Shown: positions 11,759 to 63,773 of the stretch, one piece after another
How the letters are laid out: the number at the start of each line of letters is the position of its first letter
Numbering within the stretch: position 1 is the stretch's first letter
DNA from: Telmatospirillum sp.
GTDB lineage: Bacteria > Pseudomonadota > Alphaproteobacteria > Rhodospirillales > Magnetospirillaceae
DNA: 64,000 bases
Assembly (NCBI GenBank): GCA_009712185.1
Contig: WASQ01000075.1
Location: forward strand, 1 to 64,000
Direction: 5' to 3'
The notes under the pieces: model-generated
The model's input: only the letters and a program-made list of their open reading frames with translations
Told to the model about the DNA's origin: nothing
Databases searched by the model: none
Program-made: the position numbers and the translations under genes

Positions 11759-11886
11759 CGTCCGTTGCGGATCCCGGTGATCGTCCCCGCGACCGCGGAT
11801 CTGTCGGGAAAACTTCCAATGCGCGCCGTCATTGCCTATGATCCGGCCGCACCTCCCCCAACAGACCGGAGCCGACGAGCAGCGCC

Positions 11887-47364: not shown

Positions 47365-47413
47365 TTGACTTGAATGTACCGATAGGTACATATTGTACCT
47401 ATCGGTACATTCA
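47365..47413 (+). promoter_or_regulatory. Promoter overlapped by a perfect palindromic operator
   Basis: TTGACT (47365-47370) and ACATAT (47388-47393, 17-base spacer) form the promoter. A perfect inverted repeat covers the spacer, the -10 and the start: arm TGAATGTACCGATAGGTACA (47371-47390), centre TAT, then the exact reverse complement (47394-47413). The ribosome site AAGGAG of the next gene starts at its right edge. This is the expected layout for autorepression by the TetR protein encoded two genes on. Confidence 0.88.
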
Positions 47414-54642: not shown

Positions 54643-56331
54643 ATGCTGCGCCTGAACCATGTGAGCATCGCCAAGAGACTCTGGCTGCTCGTGTTCGTCT
54701 CCTTCGCAATTCTGCTGATCCAGACCTATGACCGATTGCGAACGGTCAGCGACCAGATGTATGCGGCCCGTCTCGAGAAGGTCCGCAGCGTTGTGGAAAG
54801 CGGCCACGCCATTGTCAGCCATTACAGCGACCTCGCGGCCAAGGGCGGGATGCCGATTGAGGCGGCGCAGGCCGCGGCGAAGGAGGCCCTGTCGGCGATC
54901 CGTTATTCGGGATCGGATTACCTGTTCATCACCGATGCCGAGGTCCGGACGGTGATGAACGGGGCACGGCCGGACATGAACGGCCAGGACCAGAGCGGCG
55001 TCAAGGACAGCGACGGCAGGTTTTTCGTCCGCGAGATGGTGACCATCGCCCGGGCCAAAGGCGACAGCACGGTCGAATACCGCTTTCCCAGACCCGGGTC
55101 CTCCACCCCCGTCCGCAAACTGTCCTACTCGAAACAGCTTGCCGCCTGGGGCTGGACCATTGGATCGGGGGTCTATATTGACGACATCGACGCGGCCATC
55201 CGCTCCGAGATGATCGTACAGGGCGGCGTCACCCTGGCTTCCCTTGTCATTCTGACGGTGGCGGGACTGTTCATCGGCCGGGCCATTTCCCGCCCGATCA
55301 CCACATTGACCGATCAGATGCGGCGCTTAGCGGGCGGGGATCTGACCGTCGAACCGGCCTCCGACCAGGGCGCCGAAATCGGCGCGATGCAGGAGGCCGT
55401 CCGGGTTTTCAAAGACAACGCCGTCGCCGTCAAACGCCTGACCGACGAACAGAAGGAAAGCGCGGTCCGGTCCGCCGAGGAGCGACGGGTCATGCTGGCC
55501 ACCCTGTCAGACGATTTTGAACGGTCCGTCACCGGGATCGTCGACCGCCTGACGGCGGCCACCACCCATATGCGATCCACCGCCGAGGCCATGGCCGCGA
55601 CCGCGGATGATGCCTCGCACCGGTCCGACCTTGTCACCTCGGCGTCCGAGGAGACCTCTTCCAGCGTGCAGACCGTGGCCTCCGCCACCGAGGAACTCAG
55701 TGCCTCGATCGGAGAGATCGCCCGTCAGGTCCATCAATCCTCCGACATCTCACGCGAAGCCGTGGAGGCGGCGGAACGGACAGGCGCCATGGTGCGGGAT
55801 CTGTCCGAGGCCGCCCAGAAGATCGGCGATGTCGTCAGCCTGATCGACGACATCGCCGCGCAAACCAACCTTCTGGCCCTGAACGCCACCATCGAGGCGG
55901 CCCGGGCCGGCGAGGCCGGCAAAGGCTTCGCCGTGGTCGCGGGCGAGGTCAAAAGCCTCGCCAACCAGACCGCCCGGGCCACCGGCGATATCGCCAGCCA
56001 GGTTGCCGCCGTCCAGGAGGCCACGCGCGAAACCGCCGGAGCGGTCGGCACGATCACCGCCACCATCGGCCGGATCAGCGAGATCACGCAGACCATCGCC
56101 TCGGCCGTCGAACAGCAGGGTGCCGCCACACGGGAAATCACCAACAGCACCCAGACCACGGCGGCGGGAACGGCGACGGTCGCCCGGACGCTGGAAGAGG
56201 TCGCCAGCGCGGCGACCGATGCCGGGAAGGCGGCCCGCCTCGTGCTGGACGAAGCCGGAGATCTGGCCCGGGATTCCCAGACGCTGAAAGAGGCTGTCGA
56301 CCGGTTCCTGGCCGGCATCCGTGCCGCCTGA
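54643..56331 (+). CDS. Methyl-accepting chemotaxis protein with Cache sensor domain
   Basis: A 562-residue chemoreceptor. The first membrane helix (about 10-26) is followed by a periplasmic single-Cache domain (about 35-180, with [20 protein letters not shown] and [18 protein letters not shown]), the second helix (about 192-212), a HAMP domain (about 213-266) and a long signalling coiled coil. The hairpin tip [33 protein letters not shown] that contacts CheA and CheW is intact. The ligand is unknown. The ATG follows GGGGAGGATAGCA. It is preceded by an 820-base AT-rich control region and has no chemotaxis genes nearby. Confidence 0.94.
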
Positions 56332-56548: not shown

Positions 56549-57679
56549 ATGTCGATGAAACTGGACCAGTGGATCTCTCTCCTGCGCATTGACGCGTCCA
56601 CGGTCGCGACCCTCAGAGAGTTCGCGCCCATGGTCGAGCCGCATATGGATCGCATCCTCGACACCTTTTATGCGCATCTGGCCGCCGGAGAGGAGGCGCC
56701 CCGGCTGTTCGGCTCCACGGACATGATCCGGCACGCCCGCGCCGCGCAACGTCACCACTGGATGACCTATGTCCTCGCGGGCCGGTTCGATCAGTCCTAT
56801 TTCGACGCGGCCCGGGCGATCGGCCGCAGCCACAACCGTGTCGGCGTCGACCTGATGATGTTCACAGGCGCCTATTCGGTGGTTCAGAACGAGCTGACCG
56901 GTCTGGCCTGCGGCCTCTGCTGCGACGGGCGTGGCGGGACTCTGCGGTTGATCCAGGCCATCAATCAGGCGGTTTTTCTCGACATGGGGCTCGCCGTTTC
57001 CGCCTACTACGACATTTTCGTCGGCGCTCTGGAGGATATGTCCAACGAGCTGAATTTCAGCCTCGCCCGGGCCGGAGAATTCCGCGACAACGAAACCGGC
57101 CTGCATCTGATCCGCATGAGCCGGATGTGCCATGCCCTGGCGCTGGCGATCGGCCGCGATGCGAAATGGGCACAGATGATCCTGGTGGCCAGCCCCCTGC
57201 ATGACGTGGGCAAGATCGGCATTCCCGACAGCATTCTGCTGAAGCCCGGAACCCTGGACGAGGAAGAACGCGAAACCATGCGCCGCCACCCCGTCATTGG
57301 CGGATCGATCATTCCCGATCACAGCGCCGAGGTCATCGGCATGGCCCGACGGATCTCGCTCACTCACCATGAGCGCTGGGACGGAACCGGCTATCCCACG
57401 GGACTCAAGGGCGAGGAGATTCCCCTGGAGGGGCGGATCGCCGCGATCTGCGACGTCTATGACGCGCTTCTCTCCGCCCGCCCCTACAAGGCCGCCTGGG
57501 AAAAGGACCGGGTGACCGCCTATCTTCGGGACAACGCCGGGCGTCACTTCGACCCGGCCCTGGTCTCGGCATTTCTGTCGATCCAGGACGATATCGACGA
57601 TATCCAGCGCCTGTTCGCCGAAGAGACCGGGGGGCCACGCCCGCACGCACCCGGCGTGGACGGCCCCCGGACCTACTGA
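56549..57679 (+). CDS. Globin-coupled HD-GYP protein (probable oxygen-responsive c-di-GMP phosphodiesterase)
   Basis: A 376-residue soluble protein. The N-terminal half (about residues 5-165) is a protoglobin/globin-coupled sensor fold: ILDTFYAHL and the heme-pocket segment AIGRSHNRVGVDLMMFTGAY, in which H95 is the likely proximal heme ligand. The C-terminal half (about 178-360) is an HD-GYP domain with HD at 218-219 in HDVGKIGIPDSIL and HHERWDGTGYP at 273-283, so the metal site and the GYP motif are intact. It would degrade c-di-GMP under control of O2, CO or NO. The ATG at 56549 has GGAG 13 bases upstream; a second ATG lies at 56555. It converges with the next gene. Confidence 0.88.
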   Translation: MSMKLDQWISLLRIDASTVATLREFAPMVEPHMDRILDTFYAHLAAGEEAPRLFGSTDMIRHARAAQRHHWMTYVLAGRFDQSYFDAARAIGRSHNRVGVDLMMFTGAYSVVQNELTGLACGLCCDGRGGTLRLIQAINQAVFLDMGLAVSAYYDIFVGALEDMSNELNFSLARAGEFRDNETGLHLIRMSRMCHALALAIGRDAKWAQMILVASPLHDVGKIGIPDSILLKPGTLDEEERETMRRHPVIGGSIIPDHSAEVIGMARRISLTHHERWDGTGYPTGLKGEEIPLEGRIAAICDVYDALLSARPYKAAWEKDRVTAYLRDNAGRHFDPALVSAFLSIQDDIDDIQRLFAEETGGPRPHAPGVDGPRTY

Positions 57680-57702: not shown

Positions 57703-58227
57703 TCAGATCATCTGGCCGATGGATCCGAACGTCGGGGCGGCGGAATCGCCGGACTGGAAATACTGGATGGAGACGGCCCTGCCCGTCGCCTTTTCAATGT
57801 CGCCCGCGAGAGCCTGAGTGACCTGGCCCATATCGTTACTGGACGACAACCTGCTGTCGGAGCCGATGTCGGGGCCCGACCAGACCCCCGCCTCCGGCCA
57901 GACGCCACCCAGCAGTTTTCCGGTCCCGGCATCCCGGATCACCGCGAAAGCCCTGCTGTCATTTTGGGCGGCGGTTTTCGCCGCATCCGGAGCCCGGATC
58001 AGATCCGACTGCAAAGCCAGCATCTGGGCCGAGGACAGGTGGACCGCCGGAGCGAAACCGGATAATGGCCGGGATTGCAACGCGCCAGACGCGCTGTCCG
58101 GCTCCGACCGCCCCAGATCCGGCGCGGTATCGCCATCGGCCACGGCCCCGGCCGGCCGGGCCGTCACTGAGGGCCTGAGAACGGAGTATGGGCTCGCGCC
58201 GGCACTCCCGTTGACCATGATCGACAT
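57703..58227 (-). CDS. Unknown 174-residue protein behind a sigma-54-type promoter
   Basis: I do not recognise this protein. It has no signal peptide or membrane helix. The first 70 residues are low-complexity (Ser/Ala/Pro-rich) and probably disordered; the rest has a helix (SSAQMLALQSDLIRAPDAAK), an AFAVIRDAGTGKLLGGVWPEAG strand-turn-strand segment and a Gly/Ser-rich end. Translation signals are strong: GAGGAG six bases before the ATG. A near-consensus sigma-54 promoter lies 39 bases upstream, and a hairpin terminator isolates it from the secretion genes. Genes under sigma-54 in this class are often flagellar or nitrogen-related, but nothing here proves either. Confidence 0.72.
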   Translation of the reverse strand: MSIMVNGSAGASPYSVLRPSVTARPAGAVADGDTAPDLGRSEPDSASGALQSRPLSGFAPAVHLSSAQMLALQSDLIRAPDAAKTAAQNDSRAFAVIRDAGTGKLLGGVWPEAGVWSGPDIGSDSRLSSSNDMGQVTQALAGDIEKATGRAVSIQYFQSGDSAAPTFGSIGQMI

Positions 58228-58265
58228 AGAGCTCTCCTCACCGAAAACGCGAATACCCTGTCAAA

Positions 58266-58281
58266 AGCAAATTCCATGCCA
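58266..58281 (-). promoter_or_regulatory. Near-consensus sigma-54 promoter
   Basis: On the minus strand TGGCATG-GAAT-TTGCT matches TGGCACG-N4-TTGCW with one change; GG and GC elements have the required 10-base separation. Transcription would start near 58254, 27 bases before the ATG at 58227. A TTGACA immediately downstream has no matching -10, so a sigma-70 promoter is less likely. Confidence 0.7.
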
Positions 58282-58351: not shown

Positions 58352-58513
58352 AAGTAGCATTTGCAGGCATCGGCTTGTCGGCAAAATTTTCCCATGTGGA
58401 AGATTTTACAGCCCGGCGGTTATCGCGTCCGCCCCGCCACAATTTTGCGATTCTTCGTCGAGGAAACGACGATCCGCCCGGTTTCCGGGATAAGTGACAG
58501 AATGGGAAAGCAC

Positions 58514-59422
58514 TCAGGCGACAAGCGCATGGGCGCTGCGACCGGTCCACCCCCCACTGGTGTCGCCAAAAGCGTGGGCGTCCGCACGGCCGGCGGCGGC
58601 GGCAATCCTTGCGGCATTCGCAACGGTCCCATGGCTGATCATATCGGACAACATCCCCTGAGAATCCGAAAGAGCGGCGCTACTTTGCAGAAGCGGCAGC
58701 GCGCCTGACAGGTCGCCCCCGACCACAGCAGCCGCAGACGATGCCGTCACGCCGGGCGTGGTCGCCGGTGGCGGCCTCAAACCGCTGATATTGTAGCCCT
58801 TTCCATCCGACCCATAGACAAAGTCGATGGTGTACAGCCCGCCCAAACCTTGATTGGTAATAACGACCCCGTGCTGATTTTGCAAATCCGACGCAGAAAA
58901 CAACCACAAGTCGTTCCCATGCCACGCATAATCGAGATTCGTCGAAACCGTATTTTGGAAAAAAATCGAATTAGTCCCATTCACATTACTGTCTATGCTC
59001 TGATTTATTGTAGATTTGTTAGCCGTTGCGTCAAATTGGTAGTAATTATTGTTACCGTTTCCCCCCCACATTATGTTCGTCCCGTAATACGCCACAAGAC
59101 GGTCGTTTCCAGCCGCCCCCTGGATCGTATTCGTCGCGTTGGGATCCTCCCCCCCGATCAGGGTATCGTTGCCGGCAAAATACTGCGGATTGCTGCCAAG
59201 GGGCACCGTGCTCGCAAAGCCGAACACAACTCCGCCCCCCATATAGCCGTCCAGATAGTCGTTGCCGGTCCCACCGTGGAGCATGTCCCAGTATTTCGTT
59301 CCATAAATCGTATCTCCGGAGTCATTTCCGTCGATCTCGAACGCATTGGTTCCATCCGTCGGAAATGGCTGATTCCGATAATCAGCGTATGTACTTCCGG
59401 CAGGAACAGTTAAAATAGACAT
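58514..59422 (-). CDS. RTX-like protein, candidate type I secretion substrate
   Basis: A 302-residue protein with glycine-rich nonapeptide-like repeats at about residues 30-125: GGTGNDYLDG, FAGNDTLIGG, GAAGNDRLVA and MWGGNGNNNYYQF, resembling the calcium-binding beta-roll of RTX proteins but few and degenerate. A beta-rich middle follows; the last 80 residues are Ala/Ser-rich and end in HALVA, where a C-terminal secretion signal would be. There is no N-terminal signal peptide. The ATG at 59422 follows AGGAGGTGTGT. It lies directly downstream of the hlyB/hlyD pair on the same strand. The gene is AT-richer than its neighbours. Function beyond secretion is unknown. Confidence 0.78.
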   Translation of the reverse strand: MSILTVPAGSTYADYRNQPFPTDGTNAFEIDGNDSGDTIYGTKYWDMLHGGTGNDYLDGYMGGGVVFGFASTVPLGSNPQYFAGNDTLIGGEDPNATNTIQGAAGNDRLVAYYGTNIMWGGNGNNNYYQFDATANKSTINQSIDSNVNGTNSIFFQNTVSTNLDYAWHGNDLWLFSASDLQNQHGVVITNQGLGGLYTIDFVYGSDGKGYNISGLRPPPATTPGVTASSAAAVVGGDLSGALPLLQSSAALSDSQGMLSDMISHGTVANAARIAAAAGRADAHAFGDTSGGWTGRSAHALVA

Positions 59423-59714
59423 ACACACCTCCTATATATTGCCATTATTGGCTAATAAATATGAGAAGATGACCATATGGGCCATTAAACGATACCATGC
59501 CCATCAAAACCCAGCCTCTCCAACCAACCTGCGCAGATCGGAACCGGCCAGCGCAACCCTCATGCGCCGGGTGGGTTTTCCTGAAATCCTTGGGCTGGCG
59601 CCCTCCATCCGCTCTCAACCCCTCATCGGGCCAGCCTGTCGGTAACGACCGGCAGCAGCAACCCAATGAACACCCTGAGGTTAACTAAATATGCAAGACC
59701 ATCATCATTAATTC

Positions 59715-61160
59715 TCACCTTTCATCAAACGACTCACTGAGCGTCTTCAGCAATGGAGATAGAATATAATTTATAACATGGCGTTTACCTGTATTTATTT
59801 CAACGACAACAGACATTCCAGGCTTCAATTCAACGTCTCTTCCATCTATTATCATTGACGATTTGTTGATCGAAACCCTGGCGCTATACGCATAATCATT
59901 TCCAGTGTCCTCGGTCACATTGCGCTCCATACCCGCACGCTTATTCTCGCCATCCGGAACAATAGCGTCACTGGAAAGGCCGGAGACCCGTCCAGCCACC
60001 AACCCGTAATGGGTGAAATTGAAGGCATCGACTTTGATCTCCGCCGTCTGACCGGCGTGGACAAACCCGATGTCACGATTCGCGACAAGAGCTTCGATCT
60101 CCAATCGGCTGTCCCGTGGGACGATGACCATAAGAATCTGCCCCGGCGTCACCACTCCGCCGATCGTATGTACGGCAATCTGTTGCACGGTTCCGTCGAC
60201 CGGAGCCGTCAGAGATTGAAGCCCGCGGCGCTGTGCCGCCTTAGCCATCTCCGCACCATGCTCCGCCGCGGAAGCCTTCGATCGGGCCAGATCCTCCAGC
60301 ACCCCCTTGCGGTATTCGGCCGCGGCCTGTGCCCGTTGGCGATCCAAGGATGCGAGTGCCTGTAGGGCGCCATCCCGTCTTTGACGCAGCACCAACAGCT
60401 CGTGTTGTTGCTCGACCACGGCCTGTTCGGCCTGAAGGTAAAGAAGCCGGGATCCCAATTCGCGTCGGAACAGTTCGGCACGGATATCCCGTTGCTGTTC
60501 CAGTAACGGCAAGACCGCTTTGATTTTGTCCGTTGCCGCGGCGGCCTCCGCCTCCTCGGCGCGCTTCTGAGCAACCAGACGATCAAAGGACTCCATTTTT
60601 GCGTCATGCTCTGCCGACTGAACGTCCATCCGCCGCCGCGCCACGGAAACGAGCTCCGGATCAGCGCCGTCTGGCGGGGCGAAGGCGTTGATATTCCCCA
60701 CCGCTAAAGCGTCGAGACGCGCCACATCGAGGCGGTCTTGCAGGAAATCTCCGGAAAGTCGCCGCTCTTCTGCCGCGTTGATTGTCGGATCAAGTTCAAC
60801 CAACAGATCGCCGGCCTTGACGGCCTGCCCCTCGTTCACATGAATGGCATTGATGATCCCGCCCTCAAAGGGCTGGACGACTTTCGTCTTTCCGCCTGGA
60901 ATAATCCGACCTGGCGCTGTCGCCACAATGTCGACGGTCCCGACCGACGCCCAAATCAACGCAGCGACAAGAAAAGCGACAATTGTCGCAGCGGCCGCCC
61001 TGGCGGTCGGCGAGGCCGGTGTATCCAGGATTTCCAAGGCGGCTGGTAAAAATTCCCTTTCCTCGGATCGGCGGCGCGGTCCCCGATTTCCACTCGTCGC
61101 CCGCCCCCCCGTCTCAGCCGGCTTCGTTGAGACCGGCTTGGATGCGATAAAGCGCAGCAT
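59715..61160 (-). CDS. HlyD-family membrane fusion protein of a type I secretion system
   Basis: A 481-residue periplasmic adaptor. A cytoplasmic N-terminus of about 55 residues, rich in basic residues, precedes one membrane helix (about 57-77, AAATIVAFLVAALIWASVGTV). The HlyD pattern follows: VQPFEGGIINAIHVNEGQAVKAGDLLVELD, a long alpha-hairpin (about 140-300), LTAPVDGTVQQIAVHTIGGVVTPGQ and the C-terminal FNFTHYGLVAGRV and ELKPGMSVVVEINTGKR. It connects the HlyB transporter to a TolC-type channel, which is not encoded next to it. The start overlaps the end of hlyB by 47 bases. The 292-base gap to the RTX-like gene shows no clear signal. Confidence 0.95.
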   Translation of the reverse strand: MLRFIASKPVSTKPAETGGRATSGNRGPRRRSEEREFLPAALEILDTPASPTARAAAATIVAFLVAALIWASVGTVDIVATAPGRIIPGGKTKVVQPFEGGIINAIHVNEGQAVKAGDLLVELDPTINAAEERRLSGDFLQDRLDVARLDALAVGNINAFAPPDGADPELVSVARRRMDVQSAEHDAKMESFDRLVAQKRAEEAEAAAATDKIKAVLPLLEQQRDIRAELFRRELGSRLLYLQAEQAVVEQQHELLVLRQRRDGALQALASLDRQRAQAAAEYRKGVLEDLARSKASAAEHGAEMAKAAQRRGLQSLTAPVDGTVQQIAVHTIGGVVTPGQILMVIVPRDSRLEIEALVANRDIGFVHAGQTAEIKVDAFNFTHYGLVAGRVSGLSSDAIVPDGENKRAGMERNVTEDTGNDYAYSARVSINKSSMIIDGRDVELKPGMSVVVEINTGKRHVINYILSPLLKTLSESFDER

Positions 61161-63264
61161 AACGCCCCCCTGTCCGGATCAGCTCCTCGTGGGTTCCATC
61201 CTCGACAATGCGCCCTTGCTCGACCGTGATGATGCGATCGGCGCTCCTTACGGTTGATAGCCGGTGCGCGATGATCAGAACCGTCCGCCCCTCGGAGATG
61301 GCACGCATGTTCGCCTGAATGATTTGCTCGCTCTCGCAATCAAGAGCGCTTGTCGCCTCGTCAAGAATCAGGATCCGGGGATTGGAAACCAGCGCTCTCG
61401 CGATCGCGATCCGCTGTTTCTGCCCGCCGGAAAGCGACGTTCCCCGTTCACCAATGATGGTGTCGTACCCCTGAGGCAGACGGGTGATAAACTCGTGGGC
61501 TCCCGCGAGGGTCGCCGCATGAATAATCCTGTCGGAGGGAATCGATGGATCGACCAACGCAATGTTCTCGCGAACTGACCTGTTGAACAGCACATTTTCC
61601 TGAAGAACGACGCCGATCCGACGCCTGAGCCAAGTCGGATCTATGGTCGCGAGATCGGTGCCATCGACAAACACCCGACCGCTTTCCGGAACATAGAAAC
61701 GCTGGATCAGCTTGACCAACGTACTTTTCCCCGATCCGGACGGTCCAACGATTCCCAAAATCTGCCCTGACGGAATGGACAGGGAAATCGCCGATAAAGC
61801 CTGTGGCAGATCCGGCCGAAATCGGAATGTCACATTGTCCAACCGAATATCACCGCGCAGGGGTGGGAGGCCCGATCGGGACGACCGGAGACTGGGTTCG
61901 GGCTGGGTGTTAAGAATGTCCCCCAACCGGTCCATGGAAAGCCGGACCTGTTGAAAGTCCTGCCAAAGGTTGGCGAGCCGCAAGATCGGACTGGTTGTCT
62001 GACTTGCCAACATGTTGAAGGCAACCAGTTCGCCAACCGTCATATCATTCGCCATGACGAGACGCGCGCCGACAAAAAGAATAGCGACGGCACTCAGTTT
62101 ATTGACCAGCGTGATTGTCTGTATTGCTATGGTTCCCAGAATTTGAGTCTGGAAACTCAGATCCACGTAGCAGGAGAGCTGTTCCTCCCAATGACGCTGG
62201 AGCTCCGGCTCAATTGCCATCGCCTTGATTGTCTCGACACCGGTAACGCTCTCGACAAGGAGAGACTGGTTCTCCGCTCCGCGTCGGAAGCGCTCGTTCA
62301 ACCTGTCCCTCAGAATCGGCGTCACAATAACACTCACAGTCACAATAATTGGAAATGTGACGACAACAACGAATGTCAACACTGGACTATAAATAAACAT
62401 AACGCACAAAAATAAAATTGAAAATATGACATCCAAGATAAATGTAATTGTTGATCCTGTAAGAAATTGTCTTATATTTTCGAGCTCTCGCACACGCGCA
62501 ACGGAATCTCCAACACGACGCGATTCAAAATATGAGATAGGAAGTGAAAATAAATGGCGAAATAATCGAGCACCTAGTTCGACGTCAATTCTATTGGCAG
62601 TATGTGAAAAAATGTACGTCCGCAGCCCGCCAAGGACCACATCAAATATGGACAAAATTCCGAGGCCGACAGCAAGGACCTCAAGCGTACTCAAACCTCG
62701 GTGGACGAGAACTTTATCAATGACGACTTGAAAAAACAGAGGAGAGATAAGAGCAAAAATCTGTAAAAATAACGATGAAATAAGAACTTCACAAAATATT
62801 AATCGATATTTATAAATTGCAGAAGCAAACCATCCAAGACCAAATCTGGCTGATTTTAGGTCCCCCAATCGAATCCGCCGGGCAACCAGGACCATCCGCC
62901 CACTCCAGATCGCGTCCAAATCCTCAAGACGCATGATAACTGGCCTGGAATTCAAAGGGTCCTGAACAACAACGCGATCACCCCCGACACGACCAAGGAC
63001 CAGAAAGCCCCCGCTTTTCAGTTCCATGATTGCCGGAGGAAGAATATTTCTTATTCGATCAACAGAACTTCGAACGATCCGGGCCTTTACGGGAAACTGC
63101 CTTGCGGCCCGAACCAAAAGTTCTGCCGTCAAAAATCCGGCCCCGCCTTGCTCGTGATGAATTGCGGTTTCATCGACCGCAATCCCCAAAAACTGGAGAG
63201 ACAATGCCAATGCTGCCGCACCGGAACTGCGCCCATCATCTACACACATAGCAATAGACGTCAT
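61114..63264 (-). CDS. HlyB-type ABC transporter of a type I secretion system
   Basis: A 716-residue ABC exporter. The N-terminal 130 residues form a C39-like domain lacking the catalytic cysteine (SGAAALALSLQFLGI where peptidases have a Cys), as in HlyB, so it docks rather than cleaves the substrate. Six membrane helices lie at about 150-430. The ATPase has GPSGSGKST, LSGGQKQRIAIARAL, LILDEATSALD and IAHRLST. The ATG at 63264 is preferred to a GTG five codons upstream, although neither has a good ribosome site. The membrane-domain part (about 62300-62830) is clearly AT-richer than the ATPase part. Confidence 0.94.
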   Translation of the reverse strand: MTSIAMCVDDGRSSGAAALALSLQFLGIAVDETAIHHEQGGAGFLTAELLVRAARQFPVKARIVRSSVDRIRNILPPAIMELKSGGFLVLGRVGGDRVVVQDPLNSRPVIMRLEDLDAIWSGRMVLVARRIRLGDLKSARFGLGWFASAIYKYRLIFCEVLISSLFLQIFALISPLFFQVVIDKVLVHRGLSTLEVLAVGLGILSIFDVVLGGLRTYIFSHTANRIDVELGARLFRHLFSLPISYFESRRVGDSVARVRELENIRQFLTGSTITFILDVIFSILFLCVMFIYSPVLTFVVVVTFPIIVTVSVIVTPILRDRLNERFRRGAENQSLLVESVTGVETIKAMAIEPELQRHWEEQLSCYVDLSFQTQILGTIAIQTITLVNKLSAVAILFVGARLVMANDMTVGELVAFNMLASQTTSPILRLANLWQDFQQVRLSMDRLGDILNTQPEPSLRSSRSGLPPLRGDIRLDNVTFRFRPDLPQALSAISLSIPSGQILGIVGPSGSGKSTLVKLIQRFYVPESGRVFVDGTDLATIDPTWLRRRIGVVLQENVLFNRSVRENIALVDPSIPSDRIIHAATLAGAHEFITRLPQGYDTIIGERGTSLSGGQKQRIAIARALVSNPRILILDEATSALDCESEQIIQANMRAISEGRTVLIIAHRLSTVRSADRIITVEQGRIVEDGTHEELIRTGGRYAALYRIQAGLNEAG

Positions 63265-63773
63265 ATGTCCGCGCCCCACACTGACATATTAATGAATAAT
63301 TTCCCCAATATCTCTTTTTTAATACCGCATTTACCATCATTACACTTTAAGTCCTATTTTTGTCGATAGGATACAACTCATATCTTCAGAACTTTCCGAA
63401 TGAACATTCTACATATGACGAAAGCAATTTTTAGTTGCTTGCGATACAACCAATGAGGGAGATGGCTCATCGCGAATTGCCCCCAAGCCCCAGTCTCGCG
63501 CGGATGCAGGCGAGGCCCATACTGCCGAAAGATCGAACGACGCCGATGGTGGACGGAAGGTGATTTTAAAAACGCCGACGACCGGGACGGACACGGCATC
63601 CGTGCTGGTCATGCAGGCGTCTGAACTTCTTTAGATTTCGGCTTTGGAGAAACGGGACGAAGCGGCATCAATGGTCCCGCGGAGAATGACCGGTGGCACG
63701 GACGATCACGCGGCCAGATCACCACACGCGGAAAGACAGCAAGGAGGTCGCGCCCCGCGCCGGGCCGAATGAT

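Follow-up and report, generated by a model that had tools for sequence, protein, structure and literature searches.

A 174-aa open reading frame of no recognised family lies behind a near-consensus sigma-54 element in the window, the whole 64-kb stretch of DNA analysed here. The locus raises two questions: whether the element is a real promoter, and which activator would open it. Sigma-54 control is all-or-none and activator-dependent; for this reason, a strict promoter would offer a testable expression condition for an orphan gene that has few other features.

A probable sigma-54 promoter and its genome-wide class

The sigma-54 (RpoN) promoter consensus is TGGCACG-N4-TTGCW (PMC3538637). A consensus scan and genome-wide pattern counts identified the putative -24/-12 promoter TGGCATG-GAAT-TTGCT (TGGCATGGAATTTGCT) at 58281-58266 on the minus strand. 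As a sequence-only reading had claimed, it differs from the consensus at one base (C to T at position 6). TGGCATGGAATTTGCT was the only site in the 64-kb window with at most one mismatch to TGGCACGN4TTGCW; about 0.45 such sites are expected per 64 kb by chance, so the window by itself gives weak support. The bacterium's own genome (6.11 Mb, 153 contigs) was searched with the pattern TGGCAYG-N4-TTGCW, the same pattern read backwards serving as control. There were 15 sites versus 0 for the reversed pattern. When two bases were relaxed to any letter, the numbers were 41 and 19. The T variant TGGCATG was present in 6 of the 15 strict sites, that of the orphan and five others. Thus, the orphan's site departs from known sigma-54 promoters in a base that recurs among the strict sites of this genome, and resembles them in its spacing and placement.

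Translation of the DNA downstream of each strict site revealed a co-directional ORF in all 15 cases. The genes concerned include nifH, one behind a nif-cluster promoter just after nifA, and flagellin (Flagellin_N). The products of four (L002, L011, L012, L015) end in PEP-CTERM-like tails. Others, named by eye from sequence, are short-chain fatty acid transporter-like, enoyl-CoA hydratase-like and ECF-type sigma factor-like, among more. RpoN itself is encoded in the genome (524-aa frame, E 2.4e-67). Although the evidence from the single window is weak, the genome-wide count of 15 versus 0, the co-directional ORFs and the presence of RpoN settle the class of the site, and TGGCATGGAATTTGCT is very probably a real sigma-54 promoter. 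The promoter is of a well-known, ordinary kind; the gene behind it is an unusual orphan. The 15 strict sites also provide a concise prediction of the RpoN regulon in this bacterium. One of them (L005, contig C75:3492) drives a 456-aa protein rich in Ala, Gln and Pro, the first 160 residues of which had no Pfam match.

The transcription unit and its product

The orphan gene has an ATG start and occupies 57703-58227 on the minus strand. With the predicted +1 set 12 nt downstream of the -12 C, at 58255, its predicted 5′ leader is 28 nt long (58228-58255, minus strand) and contains a GAGGAG ribosome-binding site; the sequence-only reading had put the predicted start 27 bases before the gene. Upstream, a strong intrinsic terminator of the neighbouring RTX gene (58351-58320, minus strand) consists of a perfect 13-bp inverted repeat followed by the T-tract TTCTTTT, which bears out the proposal that a terminator separates the orphan from the secretion genes. 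The RTX gene (58514-59428, minus strand), behind this terminator, encodes a short RTX-repeat protein of 304 aa. Downstream, a convergent protoglobin/HD-GYP gene (56549-57679, plus strand) has its stop codon 23 bp from that of the orphan, indicating that the orphan is monocistronic. Own promoter and ribosome-binding site, upstream terminator and convergent downstream gene agree with the earlier description of an independent unit. On these features of the DNA, there is good support for a single-gene unit that is transcribed independently, depends on sigma-54 and an activator, and belongs to no recognised family.

The gene neighbourhood is not conserved in the genus. The convergent gene probably encodes a c-di-GMP phosphodiesterase that senses oxygen, its protoglobin domain being N-terminal and its HD-GYP domain C-terminal; in the genus, matches were confined to the HD-GYP part and none was a full-length orthologue. 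A search of 55 family genomes found nothing homologous to the RTX protein at E <= 1e-10.

The codon score of the orphan was 0.16 bits/codon with a GC3 of 0.80, and that of the antisense ORF was ~0.01. Well-known neighbours scored higher (HD-GYP gene, 0.46; HlyD, 0.22). The codon signal is positive but modest, and the ORF is likely rather than proven to be coding; taking all features together, we consider that the gene is most probably real. The earlier statement that the product belongs to no recognised family held up: profile and sequence searches of Pfam, NCBIfam, PHROGs and PDB sequences gave no hit. No credible homologue was found among 60 relatives, 55 genomes of the family and 317 genomes of the order, nor any homologue in species-level genome contig, plasmid, phage or viral contig collections. 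The weak matches that these searches returned look like chance, being short, of low complexity or in frames with stops. The orphan's resemblance to FlaG/FlgM-like flagellar proteins was our presumption; no profile matched it, and this identity was rejected.

The protein has a pI of 4.8, contains no cysteine and is rich in Ala, Ser and Gly. Two structure models, one of the whole protein and one of the domain alone, were both folded without an alignment. The single-sequence model predicted disorder for residues 1-90 and a beta-beta-beta-alpha-beta domain at residues ~93-158; the domain modelled alone adopted the same predicted fold (pLDDT 67, pTM 0.60). Comparison with solved structures gave weak, mostly antibody-like matches, with Z at most 4.1 (best Z 3.9 for the domain, whose model has the pLDDT of 67), and viral structure models gave no match with E < 0.001. 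With weak matches only, the small predicted domain appears to match no solved fold, and we claim none.

Candidate activator sites upstream

The stretch 58410-58376, which reads TGTAAAATCTTCCACATGGGAAAATTTTGCCGACA on the gene strand, contains two candidate activator sites. Together they form a new candidate enhancer at -155 to -121, which includes an exact NifA core and overlaps an imperfect PrsR box in reverse orientation.

NifA has TGT-N10-ACA as its established site, which most often falls within ~150 bp of the start (PMC7294313), or as a rule no less than 100 bp upstream (PMC2820453). A pattern search found this core in TGTAAAATCTTCCACA (58395-58410, minus strand; -155 to -140). Shuffled upstream DNA yielded TGT-N10-ACA in 1.3% of cases. 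Only three of the 15 strict sites have the core at -50 to -250: those of nifH (-99), of a HAD-phosphatase/aminotransferase operon (-107) and of the orphan. Genome-wide, TGGC-N7-TTGC was paired with TGT-N10-ACA at nifH, an iscA/nifU-type operon, fixA, the HAD operon and the orphan, and the reversed control gave no pair. Two further weak-looking pairs at longer spacing lie apparently inside coding sequence, so such pairing also arises by chance. nifB likewise has TGT-N10-ACA upstream, and NifA is encoded in the genome (712 bits vs a cut-off of 529).

Several features speak against NifA. For nifH, the nifU-type operon, fixA and nifB, the site begins with TGTCG and is found between -74 and -103; that of the orphan is farther out (-155) and lacks this flank. 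The orphan's upstream stretch also looks like a PrsR box, there is no orthologue to show conservation, and the coding signal is modest. No good IHF site was found between the candidate NifA site and the orphan promoter (best match, 7/9); the nifH promoter has a perfect IHF site, and that of fixA, too, is without a good one. On balance, the pattern evidence makes NifA the best activator lead, albeit a tentative one. The HAD operon promoter (L004/L059, contig C54:16418) combines its strict sigma-54 site and core with downstream genes for a HAD-type phosphatase, an aminotransferase and a hydrolase, and a sigma-54 response regulator gene is located on the same contig (C54).

The second candidate concerns PrsR, the PEP-CTERM regulator. 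In the description by Haft et al. (PMC1569441), PEP-CTERM genes carry a 17-nt motif that ends with TTTACA and precedes the sigma-54 site by 32-92 nt; in that regulon, a gene typically forms an operon of its own and has a long upstream region (PMC1569441). We rebuilt a PrsR-box matrix from a scan of public genomes, using 28 promoters (L070-L149) of genes whose products have PEP-CTERM-like tails. The consensus across these many genomes was TGTCGRnAAAYTTTACA. In the same 28 promoters, the spacers between box and sigma-54 site fall mainly into two groups, 51-54 and 61-65 nt, which differ by roughly one helical turn. The matrix detected a partial PrsR-type box at the orphan, TGTCGGCAAAATTTTCC (58376-58392, plus strand), inverted relative to the gene. 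Its score of 16.0 was the highest of 285 window segments, and shuffles reached 16.0 in 1.3%. The PEP-CTERM gene L012, one of the strict-site genes, carries a good box (20.0 of a possible 28.4). A motif that seemed common to the orphan, flagellin (L010) and L012 was rejected, only the L012 copy being a PrsR box at proper distance. A near-copy of the L012 box, TGTCGGGAAAACTTCC, is present at 11802-11817 of the window, upstream of a gene at ~11887; the consensus scan found no adjacent sigma-54 site, and the copy is probably due to chance.

Proposed control and alternative explanations

The reading that we tentatively prefer, while rating it somewhat below an even chance, is that the orphan is a single-gene RpoN-dependent unit with NifA as its most likely activator and a lineage-specific accessory protein as its product. 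RpoN-RNA polymerase would occupy 58281-58266 as a closed complex, which an activator bound ~120-155 bp upstream would open to allow transcription from ~58255. The activator would most likely be NifA at the TGT-N10-ACA core (58410-58395), which would place expression under nitrogen-fixing, low-oxygen conditions. Opening may proceed without IHF, given that a good site for it is lacking. We would expect the product to be a lineage-specific accessory protein, small, acidic, free of cysteine and half disordered. The stronger version, that a species-only gene has been captured by the NifA-RpoN regulon and supplies a new small accessory protein needed only during nitrogen fixation, is possible but rather doubtful.

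The orphan could instead be a sigma-54 unit of the PEP-CTERM regulon, with PrsK-phosphorylated PrsR binding 58376-58392 and the protein being co-produced with exopolysaccharide and surface proteins. The genome carries a PrsR gene (676 bits vs a cut-off of 503), which immediately follows a histidine-kinase gene placed as PrsK would be, and four of the 15 strict sites drive proteins with PEP-CTERM-like tails. The best-scoring segment of the window, rarely equalled by shuffles, and the single-gene layout typical of the regulon (PMC1569441) point the same way. However, the box runs in the reverse orientation and lacks two of its six core bases (TTTACA reads TTTTCC), its 94-nt gap to the promoter exceeds the maximum of 92 (mean 63) in PMC1569441, and the product has neither a signal peptide nor a PEP-CTERM tail; we regard this explanation as improbable. 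Some other activator could act on a real promoter, FlbD, NtrC or one of ~14 others, the upstream motifs being coincidental. The genome encodes ~18 enhancer-binding proteins (NifA, NtrC, FlbD and PrsR among them), flagellin has a strict sigma-54 site, and each upstream motif at the orphan has a chance level of ~1%. On the other hand, the closest NtrC-site match has five mismatches, no element is common specifically to the orphan and flagellin upstream regions, and no flagellar gene stands beside the orphan, although a chemoreceptor gene does lie at 54643-56331. This alternative is unlikely, yet not negligible. A search for upstream motifs common to the orphan and the other 14 sigma-54 promoters gave nothing above shuffles, and a tandem 17-nt repeat at 58379/58435 was dismissed as chance level (~0.5 expected by our own estimate). 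Among the candidate activators, we rank NifA first and PrsR second, a limited share going to the others. The sequence-only reading had envisaged 'flagellar, nitrogen or stress' control; the exact NifA core, the partial PrsR-type box and the lack of an element common specifically to the orphan and flagellin narrow the choice only slightly.

Two further explanations concern the promoter and the product. The match to a promoter may be accidental, or the ORF may be a lineage-specific frame, young or decaying, that has no conserved function. The failure to find a homologue in any collection searched, the modest codon signal and the 0.45 chance sites with at most one mismatch per 64 kb are compatible with this. 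Against it stand the genome-wide excess of 15 to 0, the correct strand, intergenic placement and leader length, the good ribosome-binding site, and an open frame with GC3 0.80 that outscores its antisense frame; we judge it quite improbable. Compatible with any of the regulatory readings is the notion that the adjacent type I secretion system, whose ABC and HlyD genes are located at 59715-63279, exports the orphan protein. The protein is acidic, cysteine-free and rich in Gly, Ser and Ala, with no signal peptide visible. However, it lacks the RTX nonapeptide repeats present in the 304-aa neighbour, which is the obvious substrate, and it has a separate promoter with a terminator in between. Export may occur but is unlikely, and none of the sequence features tested supports it.

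Relation to known regulons

pnfA of Pseudomonas stutzeri A1501 is a NifA-RpoN regulon gene of unknown function (PMC2820453). Like pnfA, the orphan has a -24/-12 element, an upstream TGT-N10-ACA and a product of unknown function. Unlike pnfA, which is nif-linked and for which other diazotrophs carry homologues, the gene here is an orphan with no link to nif, and its TGT-N10-ACA is distant and lacks the local flanking bases. The PrsR/RpoN-dependent PEP-CTERM genes (PMC1569441; pepA, PMC9850573) share with the orphan a monocistronic layout, a long upstream region, a sigma-54 site and a box-like element; the orphan differs from them in its inverted and imperfect box, its overlong spacer and a product that is not a PEP-CTERM protein. 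If driven by NifA, the orphan would stand as an uncommon example of nitrogen-fixation control extending to a lineage-specific gene whose fold is unknown and which is unlinked to the nif cluster. The candidate enhancer and two named activators, NifA and PrsR, go beyond the sequence-only reading. Elsewhere in the window, adjacent palindromes TGTACCGATAGGTACA (47375-47390) and TGTACCTATCGGTACA (47394-47409), with 3 bp between them, form an operator-like tandem.
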